From NCBI RefSeq assembly GCF_000710615.1, contig NZ_JDTH01000001.1, forward strand, positions 186,001-250,000: 64,000 bases of DNA, written 5' to 3'. Each line of letters starts with the position of its first letter. Within the stretch, counting starts at the first letter, position 1. Below are positions 41,287 to 54,409 of this stretch, one piece after another. Position numbers and translations under genes: made by a program. This DNA comes from Haladaptatus cibarius D43 (GTDB lineage: Archaea; Halobacteriota; Halobacteria; Halobacteriales; Haladaptataceae). The notes under the pieces were generated by a model. That model ran no database searches. It was given only the letters and a program-made list of their open reading frames with translations, and had not been told where the DNA came from.

Positions 41287-42282
41287 TTACGCCAACGGCG
41301 TCCGTTCCACAACTTGTCCGTCGTAGGTTGGATACTGCTCTACGATTTCGCCTTTGCTCACGTCTCCTTCTTCTATCATCTCTTCTAGCAACCACCACGC
41401 AACTTCGATGTGGTCGGATTTGACGGTGTAGAACTCTTCCGGAACACCGAGTTCCGCAAATCGCTCTTCCGCGGCCCACGTCTTGCCGTAAATGAGCGTG
41501 CCGTCGTCGGTCACGTCGTCGAACTCCCGGCGAATCTGGCGGGCCATGCGTTTCAGGCGATTCCGGTGCTGGGCGGCATCCTTGAACACCGAGGTGCAGA
41601 AGTAAACGCGCTCGTGGTTGCCCATCACGTCCAGAATTTCTTCCTTTGAGCCATCGACGGCGGACATGTGGCCCTCTTGGAGTTCGTACCCTTCTTCTTG
41701 CATTCTACGGTAGTTCCCCTGACTCATCTCGAACTCGTTGACGTTACAAAACTCCGCCGCGTCTTCGTCCAAAAATTCGAGGAACTCCTCTTCGGCGCGA
41801 ATGCCCGGAATCTCGAACGAGGGTGTGATGCCCTCTTCGCGGGCGATGTAGAGAATTTCTTCCCACTCGGTTCCGTGCATGTCGCCCCAGAGTTCGTAGG
41901 GCGGATGGAATCGAATCTCGTCCAGTCCCGCGTCCGCGAGTCGGCGCATGTTCTCACGGCCGCCCGTGATTCCGGTGTAGAGATGCGTGTGGTGGTCGTC
42001 GCCGAACTCGTCTTTCAACATCGAGATGTAGCGACAGGTCTTCGCCATCGCCTCTTGCGGTTCGCCGCCCGTGATGGACGTGCCGAGGGCGTCCATCCGC
42101 TTTGCCTCGGTGATGATGTCCTCGTCGTTCTCGATTTTTCGCTCGTTGGCGTACACGTCGGTGACGTTCTTCCGGTTCTCTCCGAGCGGGCAGTAAAAGC
42201 AGTCACGCTGGTCGCAGTACCCGTAAACGAAGAGCACCATCTTACCCCCCATGGCGCACTGTTCACAGCCCTTGGAAATCAT
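41287..42282 (-). CDS. radical SAM protein (COG2108-like)
   Basis: A 331-residue radical SAM enzyme. The cluster-binding cysteines are in YGYCDQRDCFYCPLGENR (CxxxxCxxC rather than the usual CxxxCxxC), preceded by another pair CEQC at 6-9. GTSITGGEPQEAM (the GGE motif) and FHPPYELWGDM follow. This fits an archaeal family grouped as uncharacterised radical SAM proteins that I associate with COG2108; its product is unknown. It stands alone between two unrelated genes. The first Met is used, as CEQC would otherwise be lost. Confidence 0.85.
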   Translation of the reverse strand: MISKGCEQCAMGGKMVLFVYGYCDQRDCFYCPLGENRKNVTDVYANERKIENDEDIITEAKRMDALGTSITGGEPQEAMAKTCRYISMLKDEFGDDHHTHLYTGITGGRENMRRLADAGLDEIRFHPPYELWGDMHGTEWEEILYIAREEGITPSFEIPGIRAEEEFLEFLDEDAAEFCNVNEFEMSQGNYRRMQEEGYELQEGHMSAVDGSKEEILDVMGNHERVYFCTSVFKDAAQHRNRLKRMARQIRREFDDVTDDGTLIYGKTWAAEERFAELGVPEEFYTVKSDHIEVAWWLLEEMIEEGDVSKGEIVEQYPTYDGQVVERTPLA

Positions 42283-42361
42283 TGGTTATTCCCGTTTTAC
42301 CCGTGGAGCCTCAAAAAGCGTGCGAATTAGGCCCTGTTCGAACACCAACAGCACAGGTGTG

Positions 42362-43006
42362 TTAACTACTTTCCCGGATGTGCTCTCGAATAAGTGCCGC
42401 CAATTCGCGTGTCGAATGTTCTACTGTACCATCATTTTCGTACGTCACGATTCGCTCGCTGTGAACCGCTACCTGCCGACGATATCGCTGTTCTCGCCCG
42501 CTAAGAAGGCGCTCATCTACCGACTCGATGTCGTCTCCACGTTCCCGTAACCGACGCAGTTGTTGCTCGCGCGGAACGGTGAGATACACTGTCAAATCGG
42601 GCACGATGGGCGTTAGTGTCTCAACCGAATCTATGTATGCCTGCGCCGAATCGCCGAAATCGTACTGTTTCTGGATAATCGGCGGTTCACAAGCTTGTAA
42701 CGTTTCGAGATATCTATCTTTAAGAACCGTTTTACCCTCCGCGAGTAACGGTCTTATTTCATTTTCTATCTGATAGAAATGGTCTGCGACAATCGTCGAA
42801 ACGACGGTCAGCGCGTTTTTCTCAACCTCAAAATATTGGTCTTCGGTCAGTAACCGACGCAGTTCGTCGCCGAGCGGACTGCGAGAGAACTCTCCGACTG
42901 TGGCAACGTTCGACCCGAACTCCGATTCGAGTCGAGAAATCAGGGTAGACTTACCGGTTCCGTCCGTCCCTTCGAACGTCACGAGCGTTCCTCGTTTCTC
43001 TGTCAT
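42362..43006 (-). CDS. thymidylate kinase-like P-loop nucleotide kinase
   Basis: A 214-residue kinase. P-loop GTDGTGKST at about 14-22; DRYLETLQACEP near 96-107 resembles the substrate-binding DR(Y/H) motif of thymidylate kinases; RLRERGDDIESVDERLLSGREQRY near 150-175 resembles the LID region. It is divergent: the sequence is less haloarchaea-like and the LID lacks the usual RxRG spacing. As the last gene of an aminotransferase-dehydrogenase operon it may phosphorylate a sugar or modified nucleoside rather than dTMP. A true housekeeping tmk would be expected elsewhere in the genome. Confidence 0.72.
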   Translation of the reverse strand: MTEKRGTLVTFEGTDGTGKSTLISRLESEFGSNVATVGEFSRSPLGDELRRLLTEDQYFEVEKNALTVVSTIVADHFYQIENEIRPLLAEGKTVLKDRYLETLQACEPPIIQKQYDFGDSAQAYIDSVETLTPIVPDLTVYLTVPREQQLRRLRERGDDIESVDERLLSGREQRYRRQVAVHSERIVTYENDGTVEHSTRELAALIREHIRESS

Positions 43007-43302
43007 TCTCCGGAGCCGACACTACCGCTCTCGCCGAGACGCGCTCGATATTTTTCCAGGCTCGTTTCCAGTGCTTCGTCGGGGTCGATACCAACTTCGT
43101 GTGCGAACGAAAGCAAGCAGTAGTACACATCACCGAACTCGTCCACCATTTCGTCGGTCAATTCGAACTCCGACTCACCGTACTCCTGTGTCACAAGCAC
43201 GGTTTTCGAAAGCTCGCCGGTTTCCGAAACGAGGTCTAACATTCGCAGTTCTGGGTCGAGGTGCAGATCAAGCTCCTCGTTTAGTTCTCCAACCTCGGTC
43301 AT
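43003..43302 (-). CDS. MazG-like nucleotide pyrophosphohydrolase
   Basis: A 99-residue all-helical protein with the MazG metal motif: ETGE at about 27-30 and EFGD at about 55-58 (ExxE and ExxD). MazG-type enzymes split nucleoside triphosphates into monophosphates and pyrophosphate and often clear unusual nucleotides. It overlaps the aminotransferase gene and the kinase gene by four bases on each side, which ties it to the same pathway. Confidence 0.83.
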   Translation of the reverse strand: MTEVGELNEELDLHLDPELRMLDLVSETGELSKTVLVTQEYGESEFELTDEMVDEFGDVYYCLLSFAHEVGIDPDEALETSLEKYRARLGESGSVGSGE

Positions 43303-44576
43303 CTTTTTTCCCAGTTCTCAGCTACCTTTCGGAAGCCGTCGATGTACTCGTCTACGAGGTCGAACCCTTTCCCGTGGAAGGTCGGGAGACTAAGACGTGG
43401 TCGATAATACTGTTCCGCACGCGGCAGATCGCCGTCCTCGTAGATGTGTTTTAGGCTCTTCCATCGCTCGTTGTCGTGATGACGACCGAAGTAACCGTCA
43501 TCGTACGTTTGGAAGAACTCCAGCGTGTGAAGTGGTTTCGACCCTGGCTTTTTTACTTTCATTCCTTCGGACTGTAGCGCATCGATATACTCGTGAACGG
43601 AGATGTCGTCGTTGAAGTCCTCCGAAACAAAAGCGGGTTTGTAGCCGTAGTATGCTCCCCGATGGACATTGTCGTGTGTGGTTGGTGGCTCGATGCCGGG
43701 AACGTCTTCGAGCTTTTCGGTGAGGTAGTCGAGTTTTTGGTTTCGCTCTTCGATCCATTCGTCGAGGTAGTCGAACTGTTTGTCAGCCATCACAACGCCG
43801 AGCGGATGGGCGCGATAGTTCTGACCGTATCCGACATCGGTAAACTGCTCGTAATAATCGGTTTCGACGGCGTCGAACGAGCGATTACGGAAGTGACCGA
43901 GCATCGTCGCCCGTTCGTACATCTCTTCATTATTCGTCATCATTATCCCACATTCACCGCCGCTGACGAGCTTGGTCGAACCGAGGCTGAAACAAGAAAC
44001 ATCGCCGAAAGTACCGACGAGCTGACCGTTGTACGTCGCCCCGTGTGCGTGCGAGCAGTCCTCGATGACCGCAAGGTCGTGCTCTTCGGCAATTTCGAGA
44101 ATCGAATCCATATCGACCGGGTGTCCCCACATATGCGTGACGACGATAGCTTCTGTTCGGTCGCTCACCTGTTCTCTGACCGATTCCGGGTCGATGTTAC
44201 CGGTATCGGTCTTCGCGTCCGCGAGCACCGGGTAGCCACGTTGCTGGAAAATCGGCATGACCGTCGCCAGAAACGTGTACGTCGGGGCAATGACTTCGTC
44301 GCCGGGTTCGAGTCCGACCGCGAAAAATGCCGAATTGAGGGCACTCGTGCCTGAACTTTGGACGACGGCGTACTCCATGTCGTGGTAATCGAGAAAACGA
44401 TTCTCGAAGTTTTGGAGGAGTTCCGAATGTCCGTAAATGGCTTTTTGACCTCCTGATTCTAAATAGTCTCTGACGGCTTCGATTTCCTCATCAATAGTGT
44501 TCGGGAGTTCGTCGTGGGGCTTCGGTGTCCGTACAGCGCTCTCTCCGCCATTGATTGCGAGCTTTTGGTTCGTCAT
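43299..44576 (-). CDS. DegT/DnrJ/EryC1/StrS-type PLP aminotransferase
   Basis: A 425-residue PLP enzyme that transfers an amino group onto a keto-sugar or keto-cyclitol. SSGTSALNSAF near 74-84 binds the PLP phosphate; IEDCSHAHGA (171-180, Asp173) holds the ring nitrogen; Lys202 in GSTKLVSGGECG is the Schiff-base lysine. The DCSHAHG form is closest in my memory to aminotransferases acting on cyclitols such as scyllo-inosose (StsC-type), but the sugar-type members also vary here. Coupled by overlaps to a dehydrogenase upstream that could supply its keto substrate. Confidence 0.9.
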   Translation of the reverse strand: MTNQKLAINGGESAVRTPKPHDELPNTIDEEIEAVRDYLESGGQKAIYGHSELLQNFENRFLDYHDMEYAVVQSSGTSALNSAFFAVGLEPGDEVIAPTYTFLATVMPIFQQRGYPVLADAKTDTGNIDPESVREQVSDRTEAIVVTHMWGHPVDMDSILEIAEEHDLAVIEDCSHAHGATYNGQLVGTFGDVSCFSLGSTKLVSGGECGIMMTNNEEMYERATMLGHFRNRSFDAVETDYYEQFTDVGYGQNYRAHPLGVVMADKQFDYLDEWIEERNQKLDYLTEKLEDVPGIEPPTTHDNVHRGAYYGYKPAFVSEDFNDDISVHEYIDALQSEGMKVKKPGSKPLHTLEFFQTYDDGYFGRHHDNERWKSLKHIYEDGDLPRAEQYYRPRLSLPTFHGKGFDLVDEYIDGFRKVAENWEKR

Positions 44577-45571
44577 TTTATATCACACTCATCGTATATC
44601 TCTTGAGTTATTTCAATTGATTTCGTCCATTGTCTTATATTCACTGGAACACTATCGTCACTAGTCAGCGTCGAGAGAAACAGGTCGGTTGGTCCCAAAT
44701 ACTCCCTACTCATCAGTTCGACATCCTGTCCCTCGGCGTCTTCGTCGTACAGTTTGACTCCTTCTTTCGTGATTTCAAATGATGCCTCTGACCCCGATAC
44801 GTAGAACCTCTCGATAGACGGTTTTCCATACGCATGTAAGGAGAGACTGTACGGAATTTCGTCCCCGAGAACACCAACGATGTCGGCGTACACCTCCATA
44901 TTCGCGCCTTTTCGAGATGCGAGTACTCCTTCGCTATCGTTCGGCGAGCGTTCGGTAAGCCAGAGAATGAGGTCTAACATGTGGTTCCCGATGTCGAACA
45001 GTTGTCCACCACCGGAGACGGCTTCTACCGCGCGCCATTCGTCTCGATATGGTGATTCGGTGTGCTTCACTCGGGTTGCCGTAATGCTCTCTATCTCTCC
45101 TATCGTTCCCGTCTCGATGAGACGCTTTGCAGTATAATACCGCGGCTTGTACCGTTTCTGATAGCTAACACGCAACGACGCATCGGATTTTTCGAGTGCT
45201 TGTTCGATGCGTTCTGTCTCCTCTATTGAAACGGCGAGTGGCTTTTCGACCAGTACGTCTGTGTCGTGTTCGAGCGCGATTAGGATTTGTTCGAAGTGGT
45301 ACTTGTGGGGTGTCGCAATGATAACTCCGTCAAGTGCACTGTAGTCGATGCTAGACGCAATATCGTAAAACGCAGTTTCCTCGGCAAGTACGCCAGAATT
45401 TGCAGCCAATTCTCGTGAAATGTCCCGAGCGTCCGGGTCGATATCACATATCGCAGACAGCTTTGCATCCACAGACGATTCTTCTATGTATCTAATATGC
45501 TTTTTTCCTGCATATCCTCCCCCAATTAGCCCAATATGAACTTCTTTTATTCTATCTACACTCTTACTCAT
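44573..45571 (-). CDS. Gfo/Idh/MocA family dehydrogenase
   Basis: A 332-residue NAD(P)-dependent oxidoreductase. Nucleotide-binding GLIGGGYAGKKH is at about 14-25, the family's EKPLAVSIEE near 108-117, and GGQLFDIGNHMLDLILWL near 187-204 contains the conserved Asp and His of the active site. Relatives oxidise a hydroxyl of inositol, glucose or glucose 6-phosphate to a ketone, the substrate type needed by the aminotransferase encoded next. First gene of a four-gene set with four-base overlaps; its base composition is visibly more AT-rich than neighbouring regions. Confidence 0.9.
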   Translation of the reverse strand: MSKSVDRIKEVHIGLIGGGYAGKKHIRYIEESSVDAKLSAICDIDPDARDISRELAANSGVLAEETAFYDIASSIDYSALDGVIIATPHKYHFEQILIALEHDTDVLVEKPLAVSIEETERIEQALEKSDASLRVSYQKRYKPRYYTAKRLIETGTIGEIESITATRVKHTESPYRDEWRAVEAVSGGGQLFDIGNHMLDLILWLTERSPNDSEGVLASRKGANMEVYADIVGVLGDEIPYSLSLHAYGKPSIERFYVSGSEASFEITKEGVKLYDEDAEGQDVELMSREYLGPTDLFLSTLTSDDSVPVNIRQWTKSIEITQEIYDECDIK

Positions 45572-45758
45572 GTATTAAACAATAAGATACTGTCTAATAT
45601 ATTCTTTTGATTTGTATCCTACATAATTGGATTCCCTCTCCATGCATATTATTTTTGCTCCTTAAACAATCAGAAAGTATTTTTACCACCGTTTGTATAT
45701 CAATTGTATACATAATACCGGAATCTAAAAGACACTAAATTAATATATTTATAGTATC
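45572..45758. promoter_or_regulatory. AT-rich divergent promoter between amino-sugar-type operon and MFS gene
   Basis: This 187-base spacer is strikingly AT-rich for this genome (for example TTAATATATTTATAG at 45740-45754) and must contain the promoters of both divergent units. A TATA-like run directly before the MFS start is too close for a leaderless promoter, so the real box is further upstream. AT-rich DNA here is also consistent with horizontally acquired DNA. Confidence 0.5.
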
Positions 45759-47012
45759 ATGTCAAGTTTGCCATCGAAAACCATCTTCAAGTACTACTGC
45801 TATAAAGCAACGACCTCCCCCGGATTTATGTGGCCAGTTTATACGCTATTTCTACTGTTACGTGGGTTGTCGTTTACGCAAATCGGAATTACTGGAACCG
45901 CGACAGCACTTGCTGCAATCATTGGTGAGATTCCAACGGGGTACGTCGGTGACCGTATCGGTCGCCGAAACAGCCTCATCATCAGCCAGTTGCTGTTCGC
46001 GTCTGTTCCCGCGGGACTTGTGATTTCACACAGCTTTCCTGCATTTCTTCTCGTCTTTTCCCTACTCGGAATTGCAGAAACGTTCCAAACGGGGAGTGGT
46101 GACGCTTGGCTGTACGACACACTGGACGATAAGGAGAAAACGGAACTCTTCACTCACATTCGTGGGCGCGGTGGTGCAATTCGAAAATGGGTCGGCGCAG
46201 GGACGATGATAGCCGGCGGAGTTCTCTACACGGTTGAGCCGACCTATCCGTTCATCGCCGCAACGATTCTTAGCACCTTCGGCGCAGTCGTCTTGGTGAC
46301 GCTGCCGAAGAGTTCGAACTATGCCAGTGATGAGGATACCGCGGCATTTCGGACAGTTGATGCGTTCGTCGCGGTTCGAAAGCAACTCTCTCAACCACCT
46401 CTTCGTTCGTTTGTCATCTATATCAGCCTTCTATTTGCAGTTATTCGCGCATCGGAGGAGTTTATTCAGCCGATTACCGCTAACGCTATTGACGGCTATC
46501 TAACTTCGAACGTGTTCTTCGGATACATGCTTCCAGAAGAGGTCGCCCTCGGTGTGATGTATGCCGCGTTTACCGTCGTATCCGCCGTAGCAAGCGACTA
46601 CGCGAGTAACGCTCGCCAACTCTTGGGCCTTCGCCGAGTCGTCCTTGCTGTTCCGATAGTCACCTCTCTCCTCATGCTTTTCCCAATAATCGTTCCCGTG
46701 TTCGTCGTTCCAGTGTTTTTCGTTATGCAGTCGGCGAAGTCGCTAATGAGGCCGATAACGAATCAGTACATCAACGACAATGCTCAATCCTTCGGCCGTG
46801 CAACGGTACTGAGCGCGGTCAGTATGGTTTACGCACTCATGACGATTCCGTTCATGCTTCTGGGTGGTGTTGCGGCTGATACATGGGAACCTGTCGTTGC
46901 AGTAACTGCGATAGGTGTTCTGTTTCTGGCCGCTGCAGCACTGTCTTACGTGTGGGAATCGCCTATCTCTAAATCCACGACTGACACATCTGTGGATAAA
47001 TCTACGAACTGA
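45759..47012 (+). CDS. MFS transporter
   Basis: A 417-residue major facilitator protein with about 12 membrane helices. The loop 2-3 signature GYVGDRIGRRNSL is at about 67-79 (G-x3-D-x2-G-R-R), followed by a large central loop. A second, weaker version follows helix 8. The conserved Asp and Arg residues point to a proton-coupled carrier; drug- or metabolite-export members have this form. It is divergent from the dehydrogenase-aminotransferase operon and could export or import its product or precursor. The Met at 45759 is the first in the frame. Confidence 0.87.
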   Translation: MSSLPSKTIFKYYCYKATTSPGFMWPVYTLFLLLRGLSFTQIGITGTATALAAIIGEIPTGYVGDRIGRRNSLIISQLLFASVPAGLVISHSFPAFLLVFSLLGIAETFQTGSGDAWLYDTLDDKEKTELFTHIRGRGGAIRKWVGAGTMIAGGVLYTVEPTYPFIAATILSTFGAVVLVTLPKSSNYASDEDTAAFRTVDAFVAVRKQLSQPPLRSFVIYISLLFAVIRASEEFIQPITANAIDGYLTSNVFFGYMLPEEVALGVMYAAFTVVSAVASDYASNARQLLGLRRVVLAVPIVTSLLMLFPIIVPVFVVPVFFVMQSAKSLMRPITNQYINDNAQSFGRATVLSAVSMVYALMTIPFMLLGGVAADTWEPVVAVTAIGVLFLAAAALSYVWESPISKSTTDTSVDKSTN

Positions 47013-47089
47013 GTTTCGACTAACTGCCCCGAATCGGCCGTCGAATATTTTGTTCCGTACTTCTGCTTGGCGCAGTAGAATACCGAACA

Positions 47090-47950
47090 TCACCGTCCAC
47101 AGACTGTCCCGAGGAAATGAAATACGAGATTCATCATGTGGTCGCCCGCTCTCCCATCTTCGAAGACTGCTTGTCCATGGGCCGACCCGGATAATTTCTC
47201 AAGTCGTTTCTGACCGGATGCATTCTCGTGCATCTGCTCCGTTGCCTGGACGAACCGGTCGTTATCGTTTTGACTCACGACGAATAACGACCAACCCTGA
47301 ATCTCGGCGGCATCTGCTGGCCCCTCAGCGGAGAGAATCAAATTGCCGTCGATAGTTCCTGACTTGGCCCGTGCATTCGTTTTGACGACCGCATCCGCTC
47401 CTGTGCCCGCTCCGAACAGCACGACTTTGGTTACGCCTGCGCGCTCACGGAGGTATCGAATTGCGGCGAGAAGATACTCCGACGTCGTGCTTCGGTCGTC
47501 AAAATTCAGATCCACGGAGAGACAAGCGTACCCCTTGTTTGCCACCGTTTCCATCTGCGGACGCCAGTCTCGTCGATTGAATTTATCACCGTGAGCGAAA
47601 ACGACACCACACGACCCATCGCCGAGAAGTGTTCCTTGTACCGTCGTACCCTTGCTGGTCGTAAACTGCACGTCTCCACCACCTTCCTGTGGTTCTGTTC
47701 CGCCCGTCGTCTCCTCGGTCGTTTCGTCGGTAGTTTTGCCAGTCGTCTCATCCGCGGTTTCATCCCCACCACTCGTCGTGCTACTTCCCGTCGTAGAACC
47801 TGTTCCTGCTGTCGTCGCATCTGTGATTCCCTGCCCGGTTGTTCCAGTGGCCGTTTCGTCGTCGCTGTCCGACGAACAACCAGCGAGGCTAACCACCGTG
47901 GCGGTTCCGACCGCTTGAAGAACGCGGCGCCGTGTTGGTGTTTGCGTCAT
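47090..47950 (-). CDS. Tat lipoprotein with alpha/beta-hydrolase fold lacking the nucleophile
   Basis: A 286-residue exported lipoprotein. TRRRVLQ at about 5-11 with a hydrophobic stretch and lipobox LAGC (Cys25) indicates Tat export and lipid anchoring. A Thr/Gly/Glu-rich linker (about 30-95) leads to an alpha/beta-hydrolase domain (VVFAHGDKFNRRDW, then YACLSVDLNFDD). The nucleophile elbow reads LFGAGTGAD, that is G-A-G-T-G where G-x-S-x-G is expected, so the serine is absent. A late histidine (GSAHGQAVF) is kept. It may be a binding protein or use another residue. Confidence 0.8.
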   Translation of the reverse strand: MTQTPTRRRVLQAVGTATVVSLAGCSSDSDDETATGTTGQGITDATTAGTGSTTGSSTTSGGDETADETTGKTTDETTEETTGGTEPQEGGGDVQFTTSKGTTVQGTLLGDGSCGVVFAHGDKFNRRDWRPQMETVANKGYACLSVDLNFDDRSTTSEYLLAAIRYLRERAGVTKVVLFGAGTGADAVVKTNARAKSGTIDGNLILSAEGPADAAEIQGWSLFVVSQNDNDRFVQATEQMHENASGQKRLEKLSGSAHGQAVFEDGRAGDHMMNLVFHFLGTVCGR

Positions 47951-48215
47951 GGTCGGGGAACTTGCGCATATCTCTATTATTATAAGCAACCTAATGTCGC
48001 GTGAACAACTCTCTCTGTATCGTTCATCACGCTTTGGCTTCGTTTACGGTTGTTTTTGTTCGCTCGCGGTTCGTTGTCACTCACCGCTCGTTGTTTCGAG
48101 CCAGACCACTTGCCTCGTTTTCCGCAGTTCGTTGTCACTCACCGCTCGATTTGCGAAATGTCTCCACCTCGTTTCTCCCGAAAACAGTTAAACGTCCCCC
48201 GCGTACCTGCGAACA
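47951..48215. other. spacer with a 22-base direct repeat
   Basis: A 265-base region between the lipoprotein and DUF373 genes. A 22-base sequence with core TTCGTTGTCACTCACCGCTC is present at 48069-48090 and again at 48127-48148, a spacing of 58 bases. Similar CGTTGTCACTCAC text is also found at about 40830. No gene is called here. Confidence 0.6.
48069..48148 (+). repeat. 22-base direct repeat, two copies 58 bases apart
   Basis: Copies at 48069-48090 and 48127-48148 are identical. Between them is a GTTTCGAGCC segment. The repeats are in the spacer upstream of the DUF373 gene and could be a short interspersed element or paired protein sites. Confidence 0.75.
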
Positions 48216-49354: not shown

Positions 49355-52300
49355 TCACATAAAGTCCGCAATTCCGGACTGCTTGTTCTTGTCGTTTTCA
49401 AACACGCTCTCCAGTGACCTATCCAGAATTTGAAGTCGCTGTTTCGTGTACTCCCGACAGTCGTACTCGTCGGCCACCTGAATTGCGGTGTCCATGTACT
49501 TGTTCACCGACCCCTGATGCACCGTCAGGTTCACCCGGCCACCGCACTCCCGGCAGTCACCCGAAAGGGGCATCCTGCGGTATTTCACGCCGCAGTCCAG
49601 ACACCGGGTTTCCTGCCGCGAGAAGGCGCGAAGGTTTCCGATGAGGTCTGGGAGGAAGTGCCCCTCGATGACGCGCTCCGCCACGTCGGTTTGGTCTACC
49701 GCTCGCGTTTTTCTGGCCAGTTCCAACTGCGCGTTCATCTTGTCCATCATCGACCCGAGGGTTTTGTAGGCCGAAAGGTCGGGGCCGAGTGCGATGTTCG
49801 AGGTGTCGTGGGTGTGCCGGAAGTTGGTGTACTCCTCGTCGGTGCCGAGGTAGTCCTCCGCGATGGTGATGTCCACGTCCTCCGGGTCGGCCATCTCCAG
49901 CGTGGCTTCGTAGAACTCCCGTGAGTATTGCTCCACGATGTCCATGTTGTGCGCCTCGTCGTCGATTTCCGAGGGGTCGATACGCGAGGACATCACCAGC
50001 GGGGCGTCCATCTGGCCGCCCCGCTTGTCCGGCAGGAACTCCTTCGAGAAGTTGAGCAGGCCGTCCATGAGGAGCATTACGCAGTCTTCGTCGCCGTCGC
50101 ACTGACCGACGTAGAGGTCGTTTGCGACGAGTGTGTGGGTGTCCGAGACTGTGACTGAATAGGTTTGCTCGGTATTGCTTTCGACAATCTCTACTGATTC
50201 CACCTCGTCAAGCCAAAGGTCACCACCATCTCCGAAAAGACGCTGAGTTCTGACTGCAATCGAGTCAATCGCATTCTCCAATGTTTTTGCTTTTCTATCG
50301 AGGTCAAATCCGATTTTATCCGCAAACCGAACTGCGTTTTCGGACGTTATTTTGAGAACCCACGATTCAAACTCGGGAACTGGATCATCACCGTAGAACT
50401 CGGCAACTGCTCCGGTCGATGGCCGACGAATTTCAGTGTAGAGTTTACTCGTAATTCCGAACCGCTTCAACGCCGCGACGAGGTCATTCTTCAATTCGTC
50501 ACTTACCGTGTGCGCTCGAATATCGACTCTGTCACTCGCGGTACTCCCATCTCCACTGAAGTATCCACGTAGATATTCTCGGAGAATTTGTTGTGGTGAG
50601 TTGAGGATACTTTGTGGAACTCGTTTTTCCGCCGCAGTCGAACCAGCATTTAGAATTTCACTGAAGAGAAGCGTAACGAGACGACTTGATGTCGTGACTT
50701 TCCACTCACTTTCCTCATACGGGGTCACTGAAAGATTAACTTCCAGTGTTTTGATGATGTGTTGTCGAGGCTTCTCATCAGGAATACAAATGGTGGTTTG
50801 ATAGAACTCTCCTTCTTTAGACCGAGTGAATCCCTCAGCAGTGTAGTACCCCAAGACTCGTGCCATGTCTTCATCGACCCTCAGCTTCCGATTGACAGAT
50901 GCAGTGTCTCGGCAAACGCCAAGTACAATATTGTCTGGAAGGTGGCCGATTAGTTGCTCTTTTCCAAATAACTCCACCAAAACAGATGCAGGAATGCTGT
51001 CTCGGTTCACCCAGTTATATACCGAAGATTGGCTTTTTCCAAGTTTCTCACCTACTGGTTTCAGATACCCTTGCTGGTTGGTTGCCGAGTCCAAGAGTGA
51101 TTTGATTCGGTCTTCTCCTAGTCCACGAATCATCAACTCGTCGTTGGAGAGTGAATCTAATTGTAGGAACTCTTCTAAAAGGTCAAACTCTGCAATGTCT
51201 CCCTCAAACTCGATTTCTTTTGGGGTCGGTATTTCGTCGCCAGTCTCGGTTTCTCGCGCTTCTATCTCTTCTATCCCGTCCGGCGTCCACCGTCTCATCG
51301 AGTGGTCGGGTGTCACAGTTATTTCCCGCCCACTCTGCGTCTCTATTTCGACCAGATGCTCCGGCGCAGGATGCTTCGAAACTGCTTCGATTGGTTTCCG
51401 AACAACGTTTCCATTTTCGTCCACCGACGGAACCAGAATCTCACAATCTAATTCTTCTACCAATGCACCGAAATCGTCCTCTTTCGGATTCTCCAGTCGT
51501 TCTTCGACCAACCGCTGAATCTCGTCGTATCGCCACGTCTCACCCTCGTCCCGATACCAAACCTTGGTTTCCGGATGGAAACAGTTCCGCCGCTTCGCCG
51601 CGTGAAAATACGGATGCGCATACCCAACCGCAGCACTCGTGAACCCGATAATCCGCCCGACAACTGCGGCAGAGGTGTGCGGGGCCATCCCGAAGACGAG
51701 TTCGCCGACAAGTTCCTCGCGTTCGTCCATCTCGTAGAACGGGTCGAGTCCGTAATAGTCGGTGAGCAGGTTGTCCACGAAATCGGCGGTTTTGAGCAGG
51801 TGTTCCGCCGCGCCGTCGGAGAGGACGATGTCCTGCACCCGTAGTTCCACGAGTTGGTCGTCGTGCCGGAACGGTTCGCCATGAATGTCCTCGTCGTAGC
51901 CCAGTGCGCGGAGTTGGTCGGCGCTCACGTCCAGTTCGGATGGACGAACCGCGGTCACGGGCAGGTCGGTCATGTCGTAGCGAATCGTCCCGTCCTTGAA
52001 CGCGCTGACGCCGTGTTTCGCGCGAAGGATTCCCTTTTCGATTGGTTCGGGCGTCTTGTGCGCCGAGGTCAATCCTTTGATGCCTTTCAGCGTGTCGAAG
52101 ACGTTTTCGCGCTCGCCGACCGATTCGAGCGCGCCTCTGTATTCGTCGTTCAAGTTGACGGTCTGTGGTTCGACGCTCGTTGCGAGGATTTCACAGCGTG
52201 GACACTCCGCGCGCCCGGACTGGTCTGGTTCGACCGTCGTGCCACAGTCGGGACATTCGTAATCCGGGTAGGTGTTGCCGCCGCAGTCCGGGCAGTTACA

Positions 52301-54409
52301 TTTGAACGTGAGATTTCCGCAGTCCTCACACTCCCTGCGACCGATTCGAAGTTCCGCTTGTCCGCGCACACCCGACATGCCTTCCGTATGCTTCGCGGCC
52401 TTCGCCACGTCGCGTTGGTCGCCGCCTGCTTCGCCGAGCGGGAACAGCGTGTGAACTGCCGGACTGAGTTCGCGTTTTTCCGACTTTTCGGGCCGTCCCA
52501 TTCGGTTCCCGATTCGCGTCGGCGCGCGTTCTCGGACTGTGAACGGCGCGACTTCGTTTACAGCTTTGATTGCATTTGTACCGCCATTTTCGTCGGCAGC
52601 TTCGCCGTCCTCGCCTTCTGTTTTCCCCCATTCGCGCGCTTTCCGGGACAGGTCGTCAGTGTCTTCCCACTCCCTGCTTAGGTCGTCATCGAACCCGAGA
52701 GAGCGAACGAACGGTTTCCACGTGGCAATCTCGATTTCTTCTCCCTGCCAGTGCTGAACGAGAAGGTGTTCGAGCGCGACTCGAACAGCGTCCGAGTTCT
52801 CGACATGGAGTCGTCCGTCCCGAATTTCTCCTGCTTCCACAGCATCCGCAAGCAGGCCGAACTCGGCCACCGAAATATCGTGCCAGAGGTGGGTACAACT
52901 CGGATGCAGTGGTGCATCGTACTCGACTGCCCAGTCGAGCGCCTCCTCGACGGTCGGATTTTTGAGGTCGATGTGCGGGTTGTCGCGCATGGCCTGCACG
53001 TCTGCCCCCGAATGTTCGAAGTCCTGCACCCACCATTCGAACGTGTAGGAAGCGGGTGCGAGCGGATGGTTGTTCTCCACGAATTCGCCGTAGTTGACGA
53101 GGTATTCACCGAGGTCGAGAATCCGCTTGACGCCGTTTCTCACCTCTATGGCTTCCTCGATGTCGTCGATTCGCCGAACGTCCCCGTTTGCGAGTCGCAC
53201 CGTCGGCCCTTCGATAGTGTCCACCGGGATGACGCCTGCCGCCTTCCCGGGGCGCTCGGTTTTGATTTGCGTTCCTGTTGCGAGAAAGTCGTCCACGAGG
53301 TGCATCGTCGCAGGATGGACGCCCGCGGTTGCGAACCCGTGGTTCCGTGCTCTCCCGTATCTGAGACGGAATCCGCCCGCTTCGCTCGGGTGGGTAAACA
53401 CGGGCCTCCCGGCGATGAGGTCGCGGAGGAACTTCGTCGCAGGTTCGACGCGTAGTGGGCCATCGGGTTCGTCGTCGGCCTCTGCTTTCCCATCCGACTC
53501 GTCTTCTCCCTCGTCGCCACTTTCGGAATCGTCGGCTTCCGCCGTCGATTCCTCGTTTTCGTCGTCCTTACCGATGGTGCCGTCGATGAGGTCTTGTAGC
53601 CACGGCCAGTCGATTTCGTCCAGATTTCGCGTGTATCGCTGAATCTTGGGCGCTTTGAGTGCAATCCCCTCCGCGAGAACCAGACACATCCCACCGCGGG
53701 CGCTGTTGGTATCGACGCGCTCCAAGTCACGAAAGCCGGAAACTTCCTCGTCGCCAGTCGCTTCGCCGTCCAGCATGACGGGGATGTTTTCCGCGATGAA
53801 TTTCGATTCCTTGTCCTTCGGCGAGTACTGCAATCCGGTTTCGGAATCGTAGAGGTTGATTTCTTCGGCGTATCGCTCTATTTCGTCGTCTCTAGCTTTG
53901 AACTCGTCCAAGCCGATGAGCGCGCGGGTGTAGTCTGCGACGAGCACCGACAGCGCTTGTGCAGTCCCACCCGCGGAGCGAATCGGCCCGGCGTAGTAGA
54001 CGTTGACGAACTCGGTGCCGTCGTCGTTCGTGAGGATTTCCACGCGGTCGATTCCCTCGATTGGTGCGGCGACCACACCTTCTGTCAGAAGGGCGACTGC
54101 GGTTCTGACCGCACCTTCGACCTTGCCGTCACGGGTGTCGTAATCTCCGACGTTCCCCTCCGCGAAGTCTTCCGCCAGTTCGAGTGCGGCCTCCTCACGG
54201 GACATCTGCCCTTCGAGTTCTCGGACGCGCTCTGCAACACCTTCGATGCCGAGGATGTTCTCGACACGGTCGGCCATGTCTTTGGCGACCGGAATCTCGA
54301 CTTCCGGTTGCGGGTCGCCGCTGTTTTCGCGGGCGGCCTCGGCGACGTCGAACGCTTCGTCCAACTGCGACTCCAGTCGCTCGAAATACTGCCGGTCTTC
54401 TTCTCGCAT
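49355..54409 (-). CDS. polC: DNA polymerase D large subunit (DP2) with intein
   Basis: Catalytic subunit of the archaeal replicative polymerase PolD. The precursor has 1684 residues; removal of a 494-residue intein (residues 943-1436) leaves 1190, normal for a haloarchaeal DP2. An acidic low-complexity insert lies near 280-320, a set of CxxC zinc fingers (CEDCGNLTFKCNCPDCGG and following) precedes the polymerase core, and two more Cys pairs (CLDCG, CRECG) lie near the C-terminus. The catalytic motif CDGDED (1437-1442, Asp1438 and Asp1440) directly follows the intein. Works with the DP1 exonuclease subunit, encoded elsewhere. Overlaps nothing; 1 base separates it from the PPC-domain gene. Confidence 0.96.
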   Translation of the reverse strand: MREEDRQYFERLESQLDEAFDVAEAARENSGDPQPEVEIPVAKDMADRVENILGIEGVAERVRELEGQMSREEAALELAEDFAEGNVGDYDTRDGKVEGAVRTAVALLTEGVVAAPIEGIDRVEILTNDDGTEFVNVYYAGPIRSAGGTAQALSVLVADYTRALIGLDEFKARDDEIERYAEEINLYDSETGLQYSPKDKESKFIAENIPVMLDGEATGDEEVSGFRDLERVDTNSARGGMCLVLAEGIALKAPKIQRYTRNLDEIDWPWLQDLIDGTIGKDDENEESTAEADDSESGDEGEDESDGKAEADDEPDGPLRVEPATKFLRDLIAGRPVFTHPSEAGGFRLRYGRARNHGFATAGVHPATMHLVDDFLATGTQIKTERPGKAAGVIPVDTIEGPTVRLANGDVRRIDDIEEAIEVRNGVKRILDLGEYLVNYGEFVENNHPLAPASYTFEWWVQDFEHSGADVQAMRDNPHIDLKNPTVEEALDWAVEYDAPLHPSCTHLWHDISVAEFGLLADAVEAGEIRDGRLHVENSDAVRVALEHLLVQHWQGEEIEIATWKPFVRSLGFDDDLSREWEDTDDLSRKAREWGKTEGEDGEAADENGGTNAIKAVNEVAPFTVRERAPTRIGNRMGRPEKSEKRELSPAVHTLFPLGEAGGDQRDVAKAAKHTEGMSGVRGQAELRIGRRECEDCGNLTFKCNCPDCGGNTYPDYECPDCGTTVEPDQSGRAECPRCEILATSVEPQTVNLNDEYRGALESVGERENVFDTLKGIKGLTSAHKTPEPIEKGILRAKHGVSAFKDGTIRYDMTDLPVTAVRPSELDVSADQLRALGYDEDIHGEPFRHDDQLVELRVQDIVLSDGAAEHLLKTADFVDNLLTDYYGLDPFYEMDEREELVGELVFGMAPHTSAAVVGRIIGFTSAAVGYAHPYFHAAKRRNCFHPETKVWYRDEGETWRYDEIQRLVEERLENPKEDDFGALVEELDCEILVPSVDENGNVVRKPIEAVSKHPAPEHLVEIETQSGREITVTPDHSMRRWTPDGIEEIEARETETGDEIPTPKEIEFEGDIAEFDLLEEFLQLDSLSNDELMIRGLGEDRIKSLLDSATNQQGYLKPVGEKLGKSQSSVYNWVNRDSIPASVLVELFGKEQLIGHLPDNIVLGVCRDTASVNRKLRVDEDMARVLGYYTAEGFTRSKEGEFYQTTICIPDEKPRQHIIKTLEVNLSVTPYEESEWKVTTSSRLVTLLFSEILNAGSTAAEKRVPQSILNSPQQILREYLRGYFSGDGSTASDRVDIRAHTVSDELKNDLVAALKRFGITSKLYTEIRRPSTGAVAEFYGDDPVPEFESWVLKITSENAVRFADKIGFDLDRKAKTLENAIDSIAVRTQRLFGDGGDLWLDEVESVEIVESNTEQTYSVTVSDTHTLVANDLYVGQCDGDEDCVMLLMDGLLNFSKEFLPDKRGGQMDAPLVMSSRIDPSEIDDEAHNMDIVEQYSREFYEATLEMADPEDVDITIAEDYLGTDEEYTNFRHTHDTSNIALGPDLSAYKTLGSMMDKMNAQLELARKTRAVDQTDVAERVIEGHFLPDLIGNLRAFSRQETRCLDCGVKYRRMPLSGDCRECGGRVNLTVHQGSVNKYMDTAIQVADEYDCREYTKQRLQILDRSLESVFENDKNKQSGIADFM
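50102..51583 (-). mobile_element. PolD intein with LAGLIDADG homing endonuclease
   Basis: A 494-residue in-frame insertion. It starts with Cys (CFHPETKVWYRDE, splicing block A), has the block B ITVTPDHSMRRW, and ends TLVANDLYVGQ before Cys+1 of the C-extein. The last residue is Gln and the one before it Gly, not the common His-Asn. LGYYTAEG and LRGYFSGDG are the two LAGLIDADG motifs. A helix-turn-helix-like segment (LGKSQSSVYNWVNRDSIPAS) lies before them. The DNA is visibly more AT-rich than the flanking exteins, as expected of a mobile element. Confidence 0.92.

Follow-up and report, generated by a model that had tools for sequence, protein, structure and literature searches.

A five-gene insertion in Haladaptatus cibarius D43 with the putative enzymes of an aminonucleotide pathway

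Introduction

Which product is made by an operon that couples the enzymes for turning a hydroxyl group into an amine to a pyrophosphohydrolase and a nucleotide kinase? The question is raised by a five-gene block of the haloarchaeon Haladaptatus cibarius D43, located in a 64,000-nucleotide stretch of its genome (the window; RefSeq assembly GCF_000710615.1, contig NZ_JDTH01000001.1, positions 186,001 to 250,000), in which a Gfo/Idh/MocA dehydrogenase, a DegT/StrS-fold aminotransferase (AT), a MazG-type nucleoside triphosphate (NTP) pyrophosphohydrolase and a nucleoside monophosphate (NMP) kinase of thymidylate kinase (TMPK) fold form an operon, with an MFS transporter encoded divergently. Aminonucleoside biosynthesis is known from few bacteria, with puromycin, A201A, cystocin and 3'-amino-3'-deoxyguanosine (ADG) as products, and a literature search with partial coverage turned up no archaeal case. 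We consider an amino-deoxynucleotide or nucleoside the rather probable product of the block, most likely a 3'-amino-3'-deoxy compound. If true, this is apparently the first archaeal aminonucleotide pathway to be recognised, as far as our searches could show. The locus would represent a small pathway open to testing, in which a kinase replaces the phosphatase of the known ones, and its comparison exposes a related locus family in Patescibacteria, Actinomycetota and others, some members of which lie beside Gre-domain genes.

Aminotransferase phylogeny

The DCSHAHG motif pointed out in the original prediction for this locus was found at AT residues 173-179. The D and the S-H-A-H-G of this motif are invariant in the AT family alignments, and K202 is likely the pyridoxal phosphate (PLP) lysine. 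A scan of ~85,000 genomes yielded 80 related AT loci (L-numbers below denote loci), and the nearest ATs are those of L019 (a metagenome-assembled genome, MAG; 52% identity) and L020 (Shimazuella kribbensis; 51%). In both, a Nudix gene directly follows the AT. L019 carries a radical-SAM gene in the usual place of Gfo, which suggests that different enzymes can do the oxidation step; a GreA/GreB-domain protein and a CYTH protein are encoded downstream.

For tree building, puromycin clusters were represented by L054, L071, L076 and L081 (Streptomyces; PAC homologue of 66-93% identity), and ADG clusters, by gene content, by L013 and L014, two stinkbug-symbiont plasmids with Gfo-AT-Nudix-IMPase as in adgB-E. 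In a careful tree the block AT, the PAC-bearing puromycin-type ATs, the adgB-E-like ATs and those of the bacterial loci with all four activities (see below) form one clade (99/94). The clade is recovered in a larger quick tree (97*) with WecE and PseC outside, both trees being built without StsC and NtdA sequences and the careful one without L010. Within the clade, the block AT groups with L020 (84/50), near L019, and outside the Pur4 and ADG-like subclades. The haloarchaeal GnnB-like sugar AT of L126, which adjoins Gfo and nucleotide-sugar dehydrogenase genes, and the paralogues L005 and L006 of the D43 genome itself fall outside the clade with support of 100/99.

Across 394 genomes of the phylum, the AT family profile (E <= 1e-100) picked out one other genome only, whose AT locus is epimerase-linked and belongs to a different subclade. 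G175/L010, G046/L158 and the plasmid loci L015 and L016 were rejected as homologous haloarchaeal operons: the AT of each lies in another subclade or beside an epimerase, and neither MazG nor kinase is present. A phage origin or phage hypermodification set was also rejected, the best phage AT matches, at 25-32% identity, being either sugar-type or of unknown type.

Recurrence of the gene set in bacteria

A Nudix, MazG or TMPK-like gene is located within 2.5 kb (<=2.5 kb) of the AT in 31 of the 80 related loci (the module loci), and a Gfo gene is present in 27 of these 31, compared with 9 of the other 49. L046, L059, L060, L087 and L090 combine all four activities of the operon, that is Gfo, AT, pyrophosphohydrolase and a TMPK-like kinase with the motif EFS. 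They differ from the block in that Nudix replaces MazG and that the stretches analysed around them hold no relative of the block MFS protein. The original prediction had named as a point against itself that the four genes might rarely occur together. This is true of the exact set of Gfo, AT, MazG and kinase, which was found nowhere else in the genomes scanned, but not of the same activities with an EFS kinase, which recur in the five loci. The block has the make-up of the module: adjacent genes for a Gfo/Idh enzyme and an AT of the clade, a Nudix-or-MazG pyrophosphohydrolase and an EFS kinase. We know of no name for the bacterial Gfo-AT-Nudix-kinase loci.

Several other loci of the scan carry features of their own. 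A divergent NDK-like protein is encoded directly after the AT at L046:8190-8639 and L088:8192-8680; that of L046 has a weak Pfam NDK match and a VHGS motif, and the Nudix and EFS kinase genes then follow. In Nonomuraea (L036:3754-5123) a nucleoside phosphorylase and a MazG are encoded upstream of a related AT, another possible nucleoside pathway. On a Streptomyces plasmid (L011:6944-10633) Gfo, a related AT and a 'thymidine phosphorylase' stand in a row near glycosyltransferases and ABC transporters, possibly an unknown nucleoside antibiotic cluster. The plasmid of Streptomyces sp. 769 (L012:2426-9718) has Gfo-AT-Nudix with 4-base overlaps and, nearby, a plasmid-borne alanyl-tRNA synthetase that might be a resistant target copy. 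L066 and L082 hold near-identical Gfo-AT-Nudix-Nudix sets in MAGs labelled Thiotrichaceae and Moraniibacteriota, by recent transfer or on a mis-binned contig.

Kinase and MazG

The predicted model of the kinase (predicted local distance difference test, pLDDT, 85) is closest in fold to thymidylate kinases, with S. aureus TMK the nearest, and both the TMPK fold and the P-loop are present. In place of the REP (CEP in one case) of the haloarchaeal dTMP kinases examined, the own genome's included, the enzyme carries EFS, and the same EFS is found in seven kinases beside bacterial AT loci (L044, L046, L059, L060, L087, L089 and L090). We infer from this motif that the monophosphate acceptor may be altered. 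The L060 kinase, from a module locus of Patescibacteria, is its closest relative (36%, 105 bits); the TMPK of the own genome gives 61 bits. A kinase family profile scores 256 bits here and does not exceed 116 bits across the remaining 393 genomes of this class; among the best matches listed elsewhere, those inspected were ordinary dTMP kinases.

That this might be the sole dTMP kinase of the organism, a further concern of the original prediction, is answered by a canonical one at G000:C1:591819 (127 vs 61 bits). With EFS instead of REP, its closest kin in the L060 module and the canonical copy elsewhere, the block kinase was rejected as the cell's canonical dTMP kinase. A known defence system was also rejected, the kinase giving only weak PADLOC matches.

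The metal-binding EXXE..EXXD residues of MazG are intact (E27, E30, E55 and D58). The protein is 41% identical to the MazG encoded directly after Gfo-AT in Komeilibacteria L048, a Gfo-AT-MazG locus where MazG takes the Nudix place right after an AT of the Pur4 subclade. No Nudix gene of the Pur7/AdgD type is present in the block, where MazG is found instead, as in L048.

Comparison with known pathways and proposed mechanism

Puromycin and ADG pathways share pur10/pur4/pur7/pur3-type genes (PMC9239236; PMC11641026). The genes adgB-E, homologous to pur10/4/7/3, yield 3'-amino-3'-deoxyguanosine in E. coli, and the triphosphate of ADG, ADG-TP, blocks further RNA extension (PMC9239236). Like adgA-E of Photorhabdus luminescens, compared here through its gene-content equivalents L013 and L014 and not through the Photorhabdus sequence itself, the block is compact, lower in GC than its surroundings, and combines an MFS protein, a dehydrogenase (Pur10-type in adg), an AT (Pur4-type in adg) and an NTP pyrophosphohydrolase. 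It differs in having MazG and a kinase where adg has pur7-type (Nudix) and pur3-type (phosphatase) genes, and in a Gfo of another lineage. With the puromycin cluster (pur10/pur4/pur7/pur3/pur8) it shares an AT of one clade, 37-39% identical across its whole length, the oxidation-amination logic and an efflux gene, but it is without peptide-adding, methyltransferase, PAC, Nudix and phosphatase genes. The block would work like a puromycin/ADG cluster, and the apparently unnamed bacterial loci have the same gene set, a kinase of the same subfamily and an AT of the same clade. It is not filed as a puromycin/ADG-type cluster because the Nudix and phosphatase genes are absent and the dehydrogenase lineage differs.

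From these comparisons we infer the substrate, the 3' position, the order of steps, the export and the biological role. By analogy with Pur10, which acts on ATP, the Gfo/Idh enzyme would oxidise a hydroxyl on the ribose of a nucleotide. The PLP enzyme would then swap the ketone for an amine, the role ascribed to Pur4. MazG, in place of the Nudix enzyme Pur7, would release pyrophosphate, either as a step of the pathway or to keep a toxic triphosphate low. The EFS kinase would then phosphorylate the resulting amino-NMP or control its level, and the MFS protein would export the product or, after dephosphorylation, its nucleoside. A product with 3'-NH2 for 3'-OH would, as the triphosphate, stop RNA chains. 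The MFS gene argues for an exported nucleoside, while the kinase in place of a phosphatase argues for an intracellular triphosphate. Two ideas of the original prediction are supported, namely that the Gfo/Idh and DegT-type pair serves hydroxyl-to-amine conversion and that MazG and a kinase imply a nucleotide-linked product.

GreA/GreB-domain genes (Table 1) are found near the AT in 5 of the 31 module loci and in 0 of the 49 others (Fisher p 0.007); L093, tried as a sixth, was dropped as Pfam gave no confirmation. At the site of the acidic pair of the GreA tip, L019 and L088 have D/D, L044 has D/E, and L041 and L059 have T and D. These genes hint at RNA polymerase as the target of the bacterial products, which may be chain terminators, and the Gre-domain proteins may possibly confer self-immunity to an RNA chain terminator in the bacterial loci. 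Whether such loci make RNA chain terminators and Gre protects the maker is now a directly testable question.

Points against the aminonucleotide reading and alternative readings

Several observations weigh against aminonucleotide biosynthesis, and the dehydrogenase is its weakest link. This protein is placed outside the Pur10-like clade (34 rows, 98/97); when it is constrained to that clade, the best tree is marginally rejected (p-AU 0.037), and Pur10 orthology is not supported. It leans to haloarchaeal Gfo proteins on a long branch (89/42, not starred), and is ~20-30% identical to Pur10-like enzymes and 37% identical to that of L011 over half its length. Recruitment of a local enzyme could explain this, as could rapid evolution of the protein. 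The AT clade also contains ATs from non-nucleotide contexts, so that membership is suggestive only. After L019 and L020, the next ATs (40-45% identity) adjoin cytidylyltransferase, APH or radical-SAM genes and the puromycin-type ATs are at 37-39%; therefore the AT alone leaves the substrate unfixed. The nearest solved AT structure, Fic25, carries a small amino-acid-type adduct and no nucleotide. In addition, the block has been found in only one archaeal genome, it has a kinase in the place of a monophosphatase (Pur3/AdgE) gene, and no Gre/TFS gene, which some loci related to the bacterial four-activity set have adjoining, is present in or near it, the two TFS-type matches of the genome being elsewhere.

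Sugar or cyclitol amination, in which the pair would make an amino sugar or aminocyclitol and MazG and the kinase would be incidental or supply a nucleotide-activated form, is in our view unlikely. Gfo/Idh plus DegT is the classic pair for it, PDB matches of the AT include BtrR and other sugar or cyclitol aminotransferases, and the dehydrogenase comes nearest, in each case below cut-off, to NCBIfam models for inositol and UDP-GlcNAc dehydrogenases. The ATs of 40-45% identity in non-nucleotide contexts point the same way. However, the sugar-type ATs of L126, L005 and L006 lie outside the clade, and the block holds no glycosyltransferase, NDP-sugar or cyclitol-synthase gene, which speaks against the kanosamine or scyllo-inosamine route of the original prediction. 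Sugar or cyclitol amination would also leave unexplained why MazG and the EFS kinase are present and why they recur beside this pair in bacteria.

Equally doubtful, in our estimate, is a broader proposal in which the window would hold the first archaeal example of an unnamed, widespread class of chain-terminator systems. Here a dehydrogenase, an AT, a Nudix or MazG enzyme and an EFS-type NMP kinase, sometimes with an NDK-like protein, would make amino-NTPs that stop foreign or competitor RNA synthesis, and Gre would provide self-protection in bacteria by transcript cleavage.

A purely intracellular defence, in which amino-NTPs would stop viral RNA or DNA synthesis as a functional analogue of viperin plus CMPK2, appears improbable to us. 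With a kinase rather than a phosphatase in the operon, the end product would seem to be phosphorylated, and the NDK-like genes after the AT in L046 (Pfam match weak) and L088, the Gre-domain genes of the bacterial loci, the patchy single-block distribution and the weak kinase matches to PADLOC candidate families are consistent with it. CMPK2 adjoins viperin and raises ddhCTP (PMC10058120), a pairing that may serve as a precedent for an intracellular triphosphate in principle only: what would be common is a 3'-modified nucleotide with a partner nucleotide kinase, while the chemistry (radical SAM) and the main enzyme are unrelated. No radical-SAM gene belongs to the block, the neighbour at 41287-42282 sitting at the same site in congeners without it. 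The MFS gene suggests export, no defence-island neighbours were noted, the PADLOC kinase matches lack a canonical TMPK control, and some relatives have phosphatases, all of which speak against such a defence.

Detoxification or salvage, with the MFS protein and the kinase/MazG handling foreign nucleosides and the dehydrogenase/AT pair in unrelated metabolism, would fit MazG enzymes, house-cleaners by family, and the MFS protein, whose relatives are frequent on haloarchaeal plasmids (up to 44% identity) and occur there without such an operon. It is very unlikely, however: the four-base overlaps and the one insertion block imply a single function, and in bacteria the pair is repeatedly found alongside pyrophosphohydrolases and kinases.

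Gene layout and insertion site

The families claimed for the four operon genes are each confirmed by a Pfam match, and all three overlaps are exactly 4 bases (Table 1); all five block proteins stay below the NCBIfam equivalog cut-offs. The divergent orientation of the MFS gene across an AT-rich spacer agrees with the open reading frame coordinates and with the GC content of the 600-bp steps covering the spacer (39-41%, flanks 55-62%). The interval 42362-47012 of the original prediction is essentially the whole inserted block.

Table 1. Location of the block features in the window and of the Gre-domain genes in bacterial loci.
Feature	Location	Strand	Length	Match or basis
TMPK-fold NMP kinase	42362-43006	-	214 aa	Pfam Thymidylate_kin 5e-17
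MazG-type NTP pyrophosphohydrolase	43003-43302	-	99 aa	Pfam MazG 6e-06, over cut-off
DegT/StrS-fold PLP aminotransferase	43299-44576	-	425 aa	Pfam DegT_DnrJ_EryC1 5e-76
Gfo/Idh/MocA NAD(P)-dependent dehydrogenase	44573-45571	-	332 aa	Pfam GFO_IDH_MocA 1e-19
AT-rich divergent spacer, presumed shared promoter region	45572-45758		187 bp	
MFS transporter	45759-47012	+	417 aa	Pfam MFS_1 1.5e-24
Inserted block, exactly these five genes	~42330-47089		~4.76 kb	identity with congeners ends ~42329, returns ~47092
GreA/GreB-domain gene	L019:8702-9217			Pfam
GreA/GreB-domain gene	L041:8745-9206	-		Pfam
GreA/GreB-domain gene	L044:9634-10545			Pfam
GreA/GreB-domain gene	L059:9428-9886	-		Pfam
GreA/GreB-domain gene	L088:10624-11148			Pfam

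The radical-SAM gene flanking the block is 90-99% identical in 8 other genomes of the genus. In 8/8 congeners examined it directly adjoins the homologue of the 47090-47989 gene, across a gap of roughly 12-80 bp, and the five-gene block is absent from this site. The block was therefore recently gained once, as one unit, or lost in all sampled congeners, and the MFS gene, as had been proposed, belongs with the operon in this single insertion. At the borders, no flanking repeats, target duplications or mobile-element genes or ends were found. With just 46-57% conservation of the gene at the right border, that border is placed only approximately.

That gene (47090-47989) encodes a secreted-type protein. 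Identity with congeners is 46-57% for this protein and 82-99% for its neighbours, suggestive of unusually fast change or replacement. Further along the window, 49355-54409 encodes the large subunit of archaeal DNA polymerase D with an in-frame intein, whose LAGLIDADG and splicing domains (residues ~980-1430) coincide with a local GC dip at 50300-51500.

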